Source of the DNA: Chryseobacterium jejuense
Lineage (GTDB): Bacteria; Bacteroidota; Bacteroidia; Flavobacteriales; Weeksellaceae
Reading direction: 5' to 3'
Length of the DNA: 64,000 nt
Assembly: GCF_017877355.1 (NCBI RefSeq)
Contig: NZ_JAGIPR010000001.1
Location: 744,001 to 808,000, forward strand
Shown here in pieces: positions 8,716 to 16,947 of this stretch. Numbering within the stretch: position 1 is the stretch's first letter; the number at the start of each line of letters is the position of its first letter. Under the pieces are notes generated by a model that was given only the letters and a program-made list of their open reading frames with translations, was not told the DNA's origin and did not search any database. A program made the translations under genes and the position numbers.

Positions 8716-9531
8716 CTAAACGATAAATAATGAGGCAATAGCTTGTGCATCACTTCCACTCAAAATTTCATCATAGGCTGCAGAGCCTGCGGCAGCTCCA
8801 AATGCAGTTCCAGTGTTGTATCCGGCCTGATTCACGTTATCTTCACCGGCATAGACAGGATTAGTAGCTGATGGCATATTTCCTCCATTAGCAAGTTCAA
8901 TCCAACCTTTATTAGCTCGCATTCTTCTAACTTGTGAAGCATGTCTTGCTTCCACAGAATGAATCTGCAAGGCCGCTTGAAGAACAACTTTATTGGACAT
9001 AACATTTCCAGCCTGTCCTTTATAAGCTCTTACTCCTGTATCTTCAAAAGCCTGAGAGAGAATAAGAAATTGATTGTAATCGGTAAATGGTGAAAAATTA
9101 CCGTTTGCTGTAAAATCAAAAGTTGGTTTGCTACCGGGAGTTACTCCCAGAGATGTAAGGGTGCTTTTCAGAAAACTGACATGGGCAGATTCATGTTTGG
9201 AAATTTGCATAAAAACTGCTCTGTCTGCATTGGGAATTAATCCTGAGGTGGATAATCCTATAGCGTAATATTCGTTTTCAAGGTACTCAAGTATCAGAGC
9301 AAGTTGTAAAGCGTCTGTTAAAGTACTTTTAAGGGCTGTTCCGGTAATCTTTGTATTTACTGTTTCTGCTTTTACTGACGTTGTCATTAAGGCTCCTAAT
9401 CCTAGAGGAACAGCGGCTACAGCTGTTTTTTTTCCTAGTAAGGATATATTTGTAATGGTTTCCTGCCGGGATGCTTCCGTGGTGAAGAATTTATCATGAG
9501 AAAGCTTATCTAATAATTTAAGAATGTTCAT
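8716..9531 (-). CDS. Ferritin-like domain protein (periplasmic, Ferritin_2 type)
   Basis: 271 residues. After a segment with a hydrophobic stretch (KKTAVAAVPLGLGALMTTSVKA, about residues 34-55, likely export signal) comes a four-helix bundle with two metal half-sites: EYLENEYY plus KHESAHVSF, and AFEDTGVRAY plus HSVEARHASQVR. These E/ExxH pairs fit a di-iron or di-metal ferritin-like site (Pfam Ferritin_2, also seen in desiccation-related proteins). It lies 25 bases downstream of a second ferritin-like gene and surely shares its transcript. Role is unknown; oxidative or metal stress protection is an inference from family and neighbours. Confidence 0.8.
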   Translation of the reverse strand: MNILKLLDKLSHDKFFTTEASRQETITNISLLGKKTAVAAVPLGLGALMTTSVKAETVNTKITGTALKSTLTDALQLALILEYLENEYYAIGLSTSGLIPNADRAVFMQISKHESAHVSFLKSTLTSLGVTPGSKPTFDFTANGNFSPFTDYNQFLILSQAFEDTGVRAYKGQAGNVMSNKVVLQAALQIHSVEARHASQVRRMRANKGWIELANGGNMPSATNPVYAGEDNVNQAGYNTGTAFGAAAGSAAYDEILSGSDAQAIASLFIV

Positions 9532-9556: not shown

Positions 9557-10270
9557 TTAATTAATACCTCTTTCTTTCCAGGTAAAGCGGGTTTTTATAA
9601 ATCCTCCTGCTGCCATTACAATATCCTTCGGCTCTTTAGCAAGATCAAGACCATTCGCGTCTATTACATCGTCACCGGAAAAATCAGCGGTTCCGGGATT
9701 GATGAGATTTCTGATAGCAGAAGCATGTCTGGCTTCTACGGAAACTATTTTTCCTGCAATGACAAGATAGTCAGCATTAGTTATGTACTTTCCGGCACCA
9801 TTGTAAGCCGCTACTCCTGTATCTTCCAATGCTTTTGCCGTGGCAAGTACAGAATTTCGGTCATTAAAGTTTACATTGGGATACTGAAAGTCAAGTTTTG
9901 GAAGTACATTTTGGGTAGCACCGCTGATTGCTGCTTTAAAAAAATCCCGGTGTATTACCTCATGATGGTAAAGATCAGTGAAGACCTCTTTTTCAATACT
10001 GGAAATTCCGGTATAAAAATTATTCACTACTTTGGTGTAAAAATCGGCTTCCAGTTGTTCAAGGGCGTAAGCATAATTTAAAATTCCTACATCTCCGGTT
10101 CCTAAATCAAAGATTTTGCTGTTATCCATCATCTGAAAGTCGTCATCATCATTACAGCCTATCATTGTGAGCCCGGCAATTGCCAGTCCCACGCCGCTCA
10201 GCTTTAAAAAGTTTCTTCTGCCTGTATCAAGAGTTGCCCCCTGATTAGAAACATGAATCATTTTTTTCAT
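9557..10270 (-). CDS. Tat-exported ferritin-like lipoprotein
   Basis: 237 residues. The N-terminus has a twin-arginine motif GRRNFLKLSG, a hydrophobic stretch and a lipobox-like IGC, so it is probably exported folded by Tat and lipid-anchored. The bundle carries the same metal-ligand pattern as its partner: YALEQLEADFY, HHEVIHRDFF, ALEDTGVAAY, SVEARHASAIR. Tat export suggests the metal is loaded in the cytoplasm. It is the first gene of a two-gene unit with the protein at 8716. A hairpin with U-run separates it from the fasciclin gene upstream, so expression comes by read-through or from its own promoter. Confidence 0.82.
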   Translation of the reverse strand: MKKMIHVSNQGATLDTGRRNFLKLSGVGLAIAGLTMIGCNDDDDFQMMDNSKIFDLGTGDVGILNYAYALEQLEADFYTKVVNNFYTGISSIEKEVFTDLYHHEVIHRDFFKAAISGATQNVLPKLDFQYPNVNFNDRNSVLATAKALEDTGVAAYNGAGKYITNADYLVIAGKIVSVEARHASAIRNLINPGTADFSGDDVIDANGLDLAKEPKDIVMAAGGFIKTRFTWKERGIN

Positions 10271-10311: not shown

Positions 10312-10338
10312 AAACAGCACCCTGAAAATATGCTGTTT
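10312..10338 (-). terminator. Terminator between fasciclin gene and ferritin-like pair
   Basis: On the minus strand AAACAGCA and TGCTGTTT enclose an 11-nt loop, followed by a run of T residues (TTTTTTCTTTT). It sits just past the fasciclin stop codon, so it should end or attenuate that transcript before the ferritin-like genes. Confidence 0.7.
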
Positions 10339-10351
10339 AGCGTTATGTATA

Positions 10352-10921
10352 CTATGGCATCAGAACCGTATCTATTACGTGAATAACCCCGTTAGACTGA
10401 TTCACGTCTGCAATGGTTACTTTAGCACTGTTTCCTTTCGCATCTTTTATATAAAGATCTTTACCTTTCGTCCAGAAAGTAAGCTCCTCGCCCTGTACAG
10501 TTTTCATCATGCTTTTTCCGTTTCCAGCTTTCACTGCAGCCCAGATTTCTTTAGCACTGTATCTTCCTGGCAGAACATGATAGGTTAATATGCTTGTAAG
10601 CATTGTCTTATTTTCTGGCTTCACCAAGGTTTCTACTGTACCTTTAGGTAGTTTTGAAAATGCTGCATCTGTAGGTGCCAGCACTGTAAAAGGTCCTTTA
10701 CCCTCCAGTGTTTCTACCAAGCCTGCGGCTTTTACGGCAGCTACTAAAGTTTTATGATCTTTAGAGTTGACGGCATTTTCAATAATGTTTTTAGATGGGT
10801 ACATAGGAGCTCCTCCTACCATAACTGTTTTTTCTTTCATCATCTGTGCAGTTACCTTCCCACTAAATGCAAATGATAAAGCTACCATTGCTAAAACTGT
10901 GATTTTTGATTGTGTGTTCAT
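10352..10921 (-). CDS. Fasciclin (FAS1) domain secreted protein
   Basis: 189 residues with a cleavable signal peptide (residues 1-25, ending VTAQ) and one FAS1 domain. Its H1 segment GPFTVLAPTDAAFSKLP and H2 segment SNGVIHVIDTVLMP are textbook. FAS1 proteins act in adhesion or the extracellular matrix and are often under ECF sigma factors with RskA-type anti-sigmas (as with MPT70/83 in mycobacteria, established knowledge). Here such a pair lies 700 bases away. The promoter region shares a two-part motif with msrB (see 10962-10998). Function in this organism is unknown. Confidence 0.9.
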   Translation of the reverse strand: MNTQSKITVLAMVALSFAFSGKVTAQMMKEKTVMVGGAPMYPSKNIIENAVNSKDHKTLVAAVKAAGLVETLEGKGPFTVLAPTDAAFSKLPKGTVETLVKPENKTMLTSILTYHVLPGRYSAKEIWAAVKAGNGKSMMKTVQGEELTFWTKGKDLYIKDAKGNSAKVTIADVNQSNGVIHVIDTVLMP

Positions 10922-10961: not shown

Positions 10962-10998
10962 TCTTAATGTCATTTACGAGTTTGGTTTTATTTTGGAT
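10962..10998 (-). promoter_or_regulatory. Two-part ECF-type promoter motif upstream of the fasciclin gene
   Basis: Read on the minus strand: ATCCAAA, 12 bases, TCGTAAATGA, 2 bases, TTAAGA, with the ATG 58 bases past the start of the second block. The same blocks with the same 12- and 2-base gaps precede msrB. No TAnnTTTG element is seen here. The proposed reader is the ECF sigma factor encoded at 11651; this is inference from shared sequence and proximity. Confidence 0.6.
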
Positions 10999-11038
10999 TG
11001 AAAAAAGATGAAATATATTATAAGTGTCAGTTAAACAG

Positions 11039-11560
11039 TTACTTATTTTTATTGTCAGGTCTGAAGTCAAGACATATAGAGTTCATGCAGAATCTTTTTC
11101 CTGTTGGTTTTGGACCATCATCGAAAATATGGCCAAGGTGAGAATCACATCTTCCACATAAAACTTCTGTTCTTACCATATGATGAGAAGTATCTTTTTT
11201 GTATTTCACACTGTTTTTACGGATGGGCTGGTAAAATGAAGGCCAGCCGCAGGTAGTGGCAAATTTTGAAGTGGAAAGAAATAATGGGTTTCCACATACA
11301 GCACAATAATAGGTTCCCTTTTCATCAAGTTCATAATATTTTCCTGTAAAGGCTGTTTCTGTGGCTCCTTCTCTCGCTACCTGATACAGTTCAGGCTGTA
11401 AAATCTTTTTCCATTCAGAATTATCTACTTTCAGTATGTTTTCTGCTCTGTGTGAGTAGTAAGGATTCCGGATTTTAAAATGATCTGTCTGTGCCTTATA
11501 TTTCCCGGTAGCTATTGTTATAACACCGATTAAAATAACTTTTGATAGTAAGTTTTTCAT
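11039..11560 (-). CDS. msrB: Peptide-methionine (R)-S-oxide reductase, exported
   Basis: 173 residues. It has an N-terminal signal (hydrophobic residues 6-18, then KAQ), so it repairs oxidised methionine outside the cytoplasm. The zinc site is complete: Cys86 and Cys89 (YCAVCG), Cys135 and Cys138 (CGRCDSHLGH). The catalytic motif RFCMN holds Cys158, and CGWPSF at 104-109 provides a likely resolving cysteine. It is transcribed divergently from the ECF sigma gene. The shared motif with the fasciclin promoter points to sigma-factor control. The family call is certain; the reductant partner is unknown. Confidence 0.93.
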   Translation of the reverse strand: MKNLLSKVILIGVITIATGKYKAQTDHFKIRNPYYSHRAENILKVDNSEWKKILQPELYQVAREGATETAFTGKYYELDEKGTYYCAVCGNPLFLSTSKFATTCGWPSFYQPIRKNSVKYKKDTSHHMVRTEVLCGRCDSHLGHIFDDGPKPTGKRFCMNSICLDFRPDNKNK

Positions 11561-11582
11561 ATTTAATAATTTTTAAATATTG

Positions 11583-11619
11583 TCTTAAAATCATTTACGA
11601 AATAAAAGATTATTTGGAT
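11583..11619 (-). promoter_or_regulatory. Two-part ECF-type promoter motif upstream of msrB
   Basis: On the minus strand: ATCCAAA, 12 bases, TCGTAAATGA, 2 bases, TTAAGA, followed 40 bases after the second block's start by the msrB ATG. The second block is a 10/10 match to the fasciclin copy, and the spacing is identical. The upstream end abuts the -33 element of the divergent sigma promoter, so the two promoters may interfere. Confidence 0.6.
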
Positions 11620-11622
11620 TTT

Positions 11623-11653
11623 GTTTGATGTGTGTATTATTTTATTACATTTG
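11623..11653 (+). promoter_or_regulatory. Housekeeping-type promoter of the ECF sigma/anti-sigma pair
   Basis: TTTG at 11623-11626 and TACATTTG at 11646-11653 are separated by 19 bases, a very good match to the Bacteroidota -33/-7 promoter (TTTG, N19-21, TAnnTTTG). Transcription should begin near 11659, which bears on the start codon of the gene that follows. Confidence 0.6.
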
Positions 11654-12220
11654 AGCAGAAAAATAAAAATTATTAAAACAACCTATTCTGAAGAAGAACT
11701 TATCGTTTTACTAAAAGAAAAAAACGAAAACGGTTTTCATTATCTGTATGACCACTATTCCGGTGCGTTGTATGGAATTGTTTTTCGTATTGTTCAGTCT
11801 AAAGAATATGCTGAAGAAGTGATTCAGGATGTTTTTGTTAAAATTTGGAATTCTATTCATCAATATGATGCCTCTAAAGGGAGATTTTATACATGGATCA
11901 TTAATATTGCAAGAAATACAGCTATAGATTACCTGAAGTCTAAAGGATTCCAGAACGAACTTAAAAACCAACCTCTTCCCGATTTCGTATATAATAGTAC
12001 AGAACTTTCAACAGTCAATCATTCAGTTGATTATATAGGATTTAATAATGTGCTTGAAAATCTTGAAGTTGATAAACAGGAGCTCATCAATCTTTCATAT
12101 TATCAGGGATATACACAGCATGAGATTTCTGAAAAACTGAAGATACCGCTTGGAACAGTAAAGACAAAAATGCGGAATGCATTAATGAAATTAAAGGACT
12201 TGTTAAAAGATTATCAATAA
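11651..12220 (+). CDS. ECF RNA polymerase sigma factor (sigma-70 family)
   Basis: About 190 residues. Region 2 is seen in FHYLYDHYSGALYGIVFRIV and YAEEVIQDVFVKIWNSI, and region 4 in YYQGYTQHEISEKLKIPLGTVKTKM. There is no region 1 or 3, as expected for ECF factors of the SigK type. The start is uncertain. No ATG is in frame; TTG at 11621, GTG at 11630 and TTG at 11651 are possible. The conserved sequence seems to begin at ATA 11663 (IKIIKTTYSEEEL), just after the predicted transcription start. The gene is followed one base later by its RskA-type anti-sigma. The proposed regulon includes msrB and the fasciclin gene. Confidence 0.88.
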   Translation: MSRKIKIIKTTYSEEELIVLLKEKNENGFHYLYDHYSGALYGIVFRIVQSKEYAEEVIQDVFVKIWNSIHQYDASKGRFYTWIINIARNTAIDYLKSKGFQNELKNQPLPDFVYNSTELSTVNHSVDYIGFNNVLENLEVDKQELINLSYYQGYTQHEISEKLKIPLGTVKTKMRNALMKLKDLLKDYQ

Positions 12221-12221
12221 A

Positions 12222-13028
12222 TTGAATACTAAAGAATACATATCATCCGGAATTATAGAATCTTATATTCTAGGTCATGCTTCTCCTGAGGAAGCAGGTA
12301 TTTTGGAGTGTGTGATAAAGAATAATGCGGAAGTGAGGGCTGCTTTTGAAGAAGCCCAAAAAACATTGGAAAATCTTGCTACAGCGCAGGCTATAGCGCC
12401 ACCAGATGATTTAAAATCCAAGATCTGGAATAAGATTCAAAAGGAACAGAATTTTGAAGAAGAAAAACCTTTTTCTCCAGAAATTTCTGCTACTCCTTCT
12501 CTGGAAGTGTCTGAAGTTAAAAAAAGTATTCCTTGGAAAACGTTGGGTATTGCTGCTTCTGTTTTATTTTTAGCAAGTGTTGCCGGAAATCTTTTTTGGG
12601 TCAGTAAGCAATCTGAAGTACAAAAAGAAATTGCAGTAATGAAGGCTGAGAAACAATCTCAGGACTTGGCTATGCAGAAGATGAACCAGAAAATAACCAT
12701 GTTTTCTAATCCTGAGATGCAAATGGTCATGTTAAAAGGTGTAGAAAATCATAAGGATGCTAAAGCAATGGTTTTCTGGGATAAAAAAACAAAAGAAGTT
12801 TACCTTAATGCAGAGAACTTGCCTAAAGCCCCTGCAGGAATGCAGTATCAGCTTTGGGCTATAGAAGACGGAAAACCTGTAAGTGCAGGAATGTATTCAG
12901 AAGATAAGGACAGTCAGGTTGCTTTGGCTAGTATACCTAAAGCACAGGCCTTTGCTATCACTCTTGAAAAAGAAGGCGGAAGCCCTGTTCCAACAATGGA
13001 AAATATGTTTGTAATGGGAGAAATATAA
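12222..13028 (+). CDS. Anti-sigma factor, RskA family
   Basis: 268 residues beginning at a TTG (MNTKEYISSGIIESYILGHAS); the TTG start is supported by the conserved opening of this family and by lying one base after the sigma stop. An N-terminal cytoplasmic zinc-less anti-sigma domain (about 1-80) is followed by one membrane segment near residues 107-127. A periplasmic RskA domain follows, with YQLWAIEDGKPVSAG near 205-220. The design implies a signal from the periplasm that frees the sigma factor, usually by regulated proteolysis in this family. The pair is co-transcribed and ends at a terminator at 13079. Confidence 0.87.
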   Translation: MNTKEYISSGIIESYILGHASPEEAGILECVIKNNAEVRAAFEEAQKTLENLATAQAIAPPDDLKSKIWNKIQKEQNFEEEKPFSPEISATPSLEVSEVKKSIPWKTLGIAASVLFLASVAGNLFWVSKQSEVQKEIAVMKAEKQSQDLAMQKMNQKITMFSNPEMQMVMLKGVENHKDAKAMVFWDKKTKEVYLNAENLPKAPAGMQYQLWAIEDGKPVSAGMYSEDKDSQVALASIPKAQAFAITLEKEGGSPVPTMENMFVMGEI

Positions 13029-16662: not shown

Positions 16663-16947
16663 TTAGCAAGTAGAACCACACTCTAATAATTTGATGTGGA
16701 TTACACCATTAACTACACACTGTGTTTGGCATAAAGCGTTTCCAACAACGGTACCTACACCGCCGATAACACCTCCTACTGTAGAACCTACACCGCCGAC
16801 AACACCGCCAACGATAGTACCTACTCCTCCGATAACGCCACCAACAACGCCACCTAGACCACCTAATAATCCTCCGATTGGATCAAGTAATCCTTCTCCT
16901 GAAATAGATTTTAGTTCGTTTCTGTCTAGTTTTTTGAAATTTTTCAT
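16663..16947 (-). CDS. Small glycine-repeat peptide with bacteriocin-like leader
   Basis: 94 residues. The N-terminus MKNFKKLDRNELKSISGEG is the leader type found on many short Chryseobacterium peptides called bacteriocin-like. The core is a run of near-identical 8-residue units (GGVxGGVG with V/I/T between, residues about 24-68), strongly hydrophobic and glycine-rich. The tail has four cysteines (ALCQTQCVV and LLECGSTC). No transporter-peptidase or modification enzyme lies beside it. A -7-like TATATTTG precedes it at 16977-16984. It may be a secreted membrane-active peptide or a structural one; function unproven. Confidence 0.7.
   Translation of the reverse strand: MKNFKKLDRNELKSISGEGLLDPIGGLLGGLGGVVGGVIGGVGTIVGGVVGGVGSTVGGVIGGVGTVVGNALCQTQCVVNGVIHIKLLECGSTC

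Follow-up and report, generated by a model that had tools for sequence, protein, structure and literature searches.

The motif ATCCAAA-N12-TCGTAAATGA-N2-TTAAGA, which precedes both the FAS1 (fasciclin-domain) gene and msrB of Chryseobacterium jejuense, is very probably the on-switch through which the neighbouring ECF sigma factor would activate the adjacent envelope-protection genes. Judging from the sequence, we consider it highly likely that a joint model holds, in which the motif is an ECF-sigma promoter of a regulon of msrB, FAS1 and ferritin genes, the sigma gene has a weak AUU start and an intragenic copy of the promoter provides rskA feedback. The DNA analysed (the window) was a stretch of 64,000 nt, positions 744,001-808,000 on the forward strand of contig NZ_JAGIPR010000001.1 (assembly GCF_017877355.1). 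The features of the locus are listed in Table 1 with their positions in the window. A domain search recognized the sigma factor gene (Sigma70_r2, 7.8e-20; Sigma70_r4, 9e-12), followed by the anti-sigma gene (RskA_C, 6.7e-21).

Table 1. Features of the sigma factor locus and their positions in the window
Feature	Position	Strand	Details
Ferritin_2 gene FerA, second of the pair	8716-9531	-	
Ferritin_2 gene FerB	9557-10270	-	without its own promoter core; would join the regulon by read-through
Terminator-like hairpin with a downstream T-run, between FAS1 and FerB	10312-10338	-	also in relatives with the same gene order
FAS1 (fasciclin-domain) gene	10352-10921	-	apparent export signal, by eye
Probable ECF-type promoter of the FAS1 gene	10962-10998	-	-35 ATCC 10998-10995, 16-nt spacer, -10 CGTA 10978-10975
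msrB, peptide-methionine (R)-S-oxide reductase	11039-11560	-	apparent export signal, by eye
Probable ECF-type promoter of msrB	11583-11619	-	-35 ATCC 11619-11616, 16-nt spacer, -10 CGTA 11599-11596
Housekeeping Bacteroidota-type promoter of the sigma gene	11620-11653	+	TTTG ... TACATTTG, box at 11646-11653
ECF sigma factor gene, sigma regions 2 and 4	11672-12220	+	probable start codon ATT 11672-11674
Promoter core copy within the sigma gene	11966-11989	+ (sense)	AACC 11966-11969, N16, CGTA 11986-11989
Anti-sigma gene, RskA_C domain	12222-13028	+	methionine-rich part beyond the presumed membrane span

The motif in the window and in its own genome

A pattern search of the window found the complete motif at the two sites on the minus strand with 0 mismatches. 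No further window site with up to 3 mismatches was detected, and 100 shuffles gave none. The preliminary description had reported two identically spaced blocks before the fasciclin gene and msrB and had considered chance an unlikely cause; both points were borne out. From the end of the motif to the ATG there are 40 nt for FAS1 (ATG at 10921) and 22 nt for msrB (ATG at 11560); from CGTA to the ATG there are 53 and 35 nt, respectively. Both the 23-base motif in the window and the 17-base core in the 5.35-Mb genome have exactly two occurrences.

We searched the whole genome (5,345,646 bases, 31 contigs) for ATCCAAA-N12-TCGTAAATGA and obtained 2 exact sites. Sites with 1, 2 and 3 mismatches numbered 0, 1 and 46, respectively. 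The total of 49 sites compares with 61 for the reversed control pattern, and we thus regard the weak sites as noise. The single site with 2 mismatches (L003) coincides in part with a start codon, and we attributed it to chance. A looser pattern gave 9 sites versus 24 for the reversed control, and 7 of the 9 were located inside long open frames. We conclude that the motif by itself is no marker of a wide regulon. A wider regulon in this genome was accordingly rejected, since the core is exact only at the two known sites and the looser pattern stays below its control. The genome-wide check proposed earlier thus gives a regulon that, in this genome, is confined to the locus.

The probable promoter core and its genes in relatives

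The part of the motif held everywhere is A[AT]C[CT]-N16-CGTA, with the -35 element usually followed by AAA and the -10 element usually reading TCGTAAATGA. The TTAAGA block is variable and only partly conserved among relatives and sits where transcription would start. We entered 79 loci of the genus and family into the analysis of FAS1 upstream regions (up to 150 nt). One (L158) gave no FAS1 start, and another (L157), a second FAS1 copy of genome G087 that lies off the sigma gene and has a misplaced start, was excluded although it matched N16. The core was present with N16 in 72 of the remaining 77 loci (73 of 78 if L157 is counted) and with N17 in the other 5, which form the group with the most divergent sigma factor (~70% identity). 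Spacers of 10-15 and 18-23 gave 0-2 matches each in the 77 loci. All 77 FAS1 loci thus show the arrangement of an ECF-type promoter, that is, A[AT]C at -35, CGTA at -10 and a 16-17 nt spacer upstream of the target ATG.

Upstream of msrB the core was found in 30 of 32 loci, and both misses were loci without an intact msrB. These counts support the small regulon with MsrB and FAS1 that had been suggested. A quick sigma tree implied 13 or more changes in whether msrB stands beside the sigma gene, and promoter stumps remain in some loci without msrB.

We also searched 148 genus genomes for the strict form ATCYAAA-N13-CGTAAATGR. This search yielded 97 sites versus 2 for the reversed control, counts that are not independent because genomes of one genus are related. 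By position and by eye, 79 of these sites were assigned to FAS1, 3 to msrB, 4 to FerB, 9 to a recurrent off-target type and 2 as singles. The recurrent off-target ATCCAAAGGGAAACGGAATTCGTAAATGA type was judged by eye to be coding sequence of the preceding gene. It lies 203 nt before an ORF taken for an RNA methyltransferase in the two loci inspected (L035 and its one-mismatch relative L053), and the other strict sites of this type were assigned by likeness only. The two singles (L182 and L183, in genomes G147 and G094) have no match nearby to any of the six cassette proteins. When 2 mismatches were allowed, the counts in most genus genomes were, by eye, near those of the control, and only near-exact sites are therefore informative.

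Sigma orthologues in other families (37-62% identity) are accompanied by sites before FAS1, MsrB and a third gene family, taken by eye for DUF4331. In 19 sigma loci from other families of the order, A[AT]CC-N16-CGTA gave 27 sites versus at most 6 for any other spacer, and in 20 class and phylum loci it gave 35 versus at most 8; both counts include intragenic sites. In Flavobacterium sp. HSC-61S13 (L286), the sigma factor, RskA, FAS1, MsrB and both ferritin genes are all present; the core precedes FAS1 (N17) and MsrB (N16) and also occurs in the sigma gene.

In six loci (L098, L101, L124, L129, L130 and L132) a core upstream of the sigma gene points into a gap of ~550-800 bp. The gap, which ends at a gene resembling glutathione peroxidase by eye, holds no ATG-started ORF of 90 codons and may encode a small RNA or a small protein.

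The ferritin-like pair had been proposed to join the regulon by read-through. Of the 134 genomes in which FerB was matched, 28 have it separated from FAS1, as judged by position. The relocated gene has its own core in 27 of the 28 cases and an N17 version in the remaining one, 32-47 nt before the FerB ATG, versus 0 of 34 loci tested from the set in which FerB is next to FAS1. This distribution supports the proposal, and read-through from the FAS1 promoter would have to pass the terminator-like hairpin that separates FAS1 and FerB (folds of 4 examples, z -2.4 to -5.9). The adjacent and relocated states of FerB changed at least 3 times on the quick sigma tree, on which 14 of 77 rows were relocated.

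FAS1 was absent in 13 of the 148 genomes, and none of the 13 had an intact sigma gene (11 without a match, 2 with relics). FerB was absent in the same 13 genomes and in G028, which counts against the model in that it keeps sigma and FAS1 without FerB. Genome G123 is the only one that has FAS1 without a sigma match; this genome is 73% complete and its FAS1 lies at a contig edge. Taken together, the fixed 16/17 spacing and the joint loss of sigma and targets support the earlier assignment of the motif as a promoter of the adjacent ECF sigma factor. The two relics, L185 (G004) and L186 (G049), bear deletion scars, where only the ends of sigma, rskA and FerA are left and most of the cassette is gone.

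Could the motif instead be the binding site of another transcription factor, such as a redox regulator? The stress-like gene set would suit such a protein. However, the motif is not palindromic, its spacer is fixed at 16-17 like that of an ECF promoter, its distance to the ATG is narrow, and sigma and RskA are the only regulators in the cassette that is lost together; we consider this explanation very unlikely. It is extremely improbable that the two sites are functionless and alike through recent duplication or common descent of the msrB and FAS1 upstream regions. Their proximity, within 700 bases, speaks for this explanation, but the 12-base spacers of the FAS1 and msrB sites in the window differ from each other, the core persists in other families and relocated FerB genes have it as well.

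Start codon of the sigma gene and the core inside it

The housekeeping promoter consensus of Bacteroidota consists of TTTG and TAnnTTTG, and the region before the sigma gene has both elements. The box TACATTTG was conserved in 35 of 36 loci and replaced by TAAATTTG in L090, in line with the separate housekeeping pattern noted for this gene in the preliminary description.

The first conserved sigma codon encodes isoleucine in all 77 loci and is never ATG, GTG or TTG. By script it was ATT in 61 and ATC in 9 loci; the 7 loci that failed this automatic test were judged by eye (4 ATA, 3 ATT). In 24 of the 70 script-scored loci there is no canonical start upstream before a stop. Among these 24, the next canonical codon lies at least 24 codons downstream in 18, and in 4 it occurs only at codon 75, in region 2. 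A non-canonical sigma start is thus needed in at least some species, because no canonical start can serve. Translation of the sigma factor probably begins at this AUU-type isoleucine codon.

A further copy of the core, which the preliminary description does not mention, lies in sense orientation inside the sigma gene, between sigma regions 2 and 4 and ~230 bp before rskA. At this site the codons AAC, TTC, GTA and TAT are used in 72 of 72 genus and family sequences, whereas elsewhere in the same genes AAC accounts for 34% of Asn, TTC for 23% of Phe and GTA for 19% of Val codons. In other families, the position preceding GTA is occupied by codons for 7 amino acids, and the third base is C in 34 of 38 sequences. 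Considering two-fold C/T codons at this position, we counted 32 C versus 4 T, compared with 460 C versus 975 T elsewhere. The codon that follows GTA has T as its third base in 35 of 38 sequences and encodes nine different amino acids. The intragenic codons are under nucleotide-level selection within coding sequence.

For the alignment of the sigma genes, 111 of 118 loci offered a stretch of sufficient length. A[AT]C[CT]-N16-17-CGTA was present in the sigma gene in 34 of 39 loci of other families and missing in 5. Among 20 more distant loci, 10 had the core in the linker (N16 or N17) and 1 somewhat before it; none was found in 9, including 7 of the 8 loci of family f37. In the named loci, the N16 core was present in 21 of 21 Chryseobacterium, which overlap the genus set, and in 35 of 59 others, and was not found in the remaining 24. 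Antisense N16 cores in the sigma gene of named loci numbered 0, and other spacers at most 4 among the non-Chryseobacterium. A spacer of N12 also scored in the sigma gene (29 of 72 genus and family loci, 11 of 21 named Chryseobacterium), which we put down to AACCAACC repeating the -35 letters.

The simplest and most likely reading is that the intragenic copy acts as an autoregulated internal promoter for rskA. In E. coli, the rpoE-rseA operon has a sigma-E promoter for rseA. The present case would resemble it in that an ECF factor raises its own anti-sigma, but in the present locus the sigma coding sequence itself contains the element, which shows codon-level conservation across families.

Constraint on the protein, namely on N...V in the linker that joins regions 2 and 4, might explain the intragenic letters without any function of the DNA. 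Asn and Val columns are indeed invariant in a 7-sequence alignment, and the loci of other families retain Asn in 31 of 38 and Val in 36 of 39 sequences. The extreme synonymous choice argues against this explanation, as do the third-base C and the following T retained through so many amino acids, and in L125, L216, L225 and L226 the -35 letters occupy a different reading frame and the spacer is 17 nt. We regard a purely protein-level cause as quite unlikely. The main rival to the internal rskA promoter is a promoter-like pause site, at which the sigma factor would rebind elongating RNA polymerase and slow its own operon. That intragenic promoter-like sequences can give sigma-dependent pausing is stated in the available part of PMC10771440. 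However, the full -35 element and the fixed spacing are kept, which is not obviously needed for pausing, and the position upstream of rskA suits a promoter; pausing is an unlikely explanation, if a serious one.

Proposed circuit and known systems

We propose that an envelope oxidation-type signal would free the sigma factor from RskA. The freed sigma factor would transcribe msrB and FAS1 via A[AT]C[CT]-N16-CGTA, and FerB and FerA would be reached by read-through past a partial terminator or, where relocated, by an own promoter. The sigma gene itself would be fed by the housekeeping promoter and probably by a weak AUU-type start codon. The intragenic copy would make extra rskA message while sigma is active, which would result in a negative feedback loop.

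In the genus, the outer part of RskA (about 12597-13028 in the window) is rich in conserved methionines. In 66 genus and family sequences, Met makes up 8.5% of residues beyond residue 125 versus 1.1% in the cytoplasmic part, and its share of L, I, V and M is 34.5% versus 4.7%. The outer-part Met content is 0-6% in 19 related loci of other families. The RskA cysteine at residue 30 is kept in 66 of 66 sequences. Given MsrB in the regulon, these data suggest that methionine oxidation may be the signal; copper is an alternative. A link between RskA Met content and an adjacent msrB was tried and dropped: 19 loci with msrB averaged 13.7 Met and 47 loci without it 11.9, but a few divergent loci supply the lowest values and the comparison is thus no evidence for a link.

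A bolder proposal would be an ECF design common to the Bacteroidota that joins three controls: an AUU start keeping sigma scarcer than RskA, activation by sigma of its own inhibitor from an in-gene promoter and, in Chryseobacterium, a methionine-rich outer RskA as an oxidation sensor reset by sigma-induced MsrB. We put this forward tentatively and consider it rather doubtful.

MPT83 and MPT70 are FAS1 proteins. The closest known system is the mpt83-sigK-rskA cassette of Mycobacterium and Yersinia (Veyrier et al. 2020, PMC7509140). As far as the available text of that paper describes it, the likeness extends to the ECF sigma factor, the RskA-type anti-sigma and an MPT83-type gene with an upstream sigma site. 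In the present locus, a FAS1-type gene likewise adjoins the pair and has an upstream sigma site, recognized by its letters only. Compared with the accessible description in PMC7509140, the present cassette belongs to Bacteroidota, has msrB and two ferritin-like genes in addition, encodes a sigma factor without cysteines and carries a promoter core within the sigma gene. The best model for the sigma factor was the SigK model PRK09646 (NCBIfam), at 130.4 bits and thus below the cut-off of 226. According to the same part of PMC7509140, the redox cysteines of M. tuberculosis SigK are at positions 133 and 183. No Cys is encoded in the window sigma from 11651 on, and the mean was 0.07 Cys per sigma in 54 genus and family sequences.

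The RpoE-ChrR photooxidative response of Rhodobacter is similar in that a fasciclin gene and Msr belong to the response: in the accessible part of PMC7074977, the fasciclin gene RSP_1409 is tabulated among the response genes, Msr proteins increase under singlet oxygen, and RpoE and ChrR of R. capsulatus are noted as resembling SigK and RskA. On the same partial evidence (PMC7074977), it differs from the present system in its phylum, in the type of the R. sphaeroides anti-sigma and in the gene set. A survey states, in its available part, that class I anti-sigma factors adjoin only 6% of Bacteroidetes ECFs (PMC7406223). In our literature search, which covered only a minority of subscription papers, we recognized no paper describing this circuit.

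The results give a Bacteroidota ECF group a sequence rule, A[AT]C[CT]-N16-CGTA, and tie a FAS1, MsrB and ferritin-like gene set to this group. The codon-level signature of the putative intragenic promoter is directly testable by synonymous recoding. Should the internal copy be functional, it would explain how the anti-sigma alone can be raised in an operon that has a single housekeeping promoter.

Elsewhere in the window, a glycine-rich ORF of 94 aa with a double-glycine-like leader (by eye) was found on the minus strand at 16663-16947.
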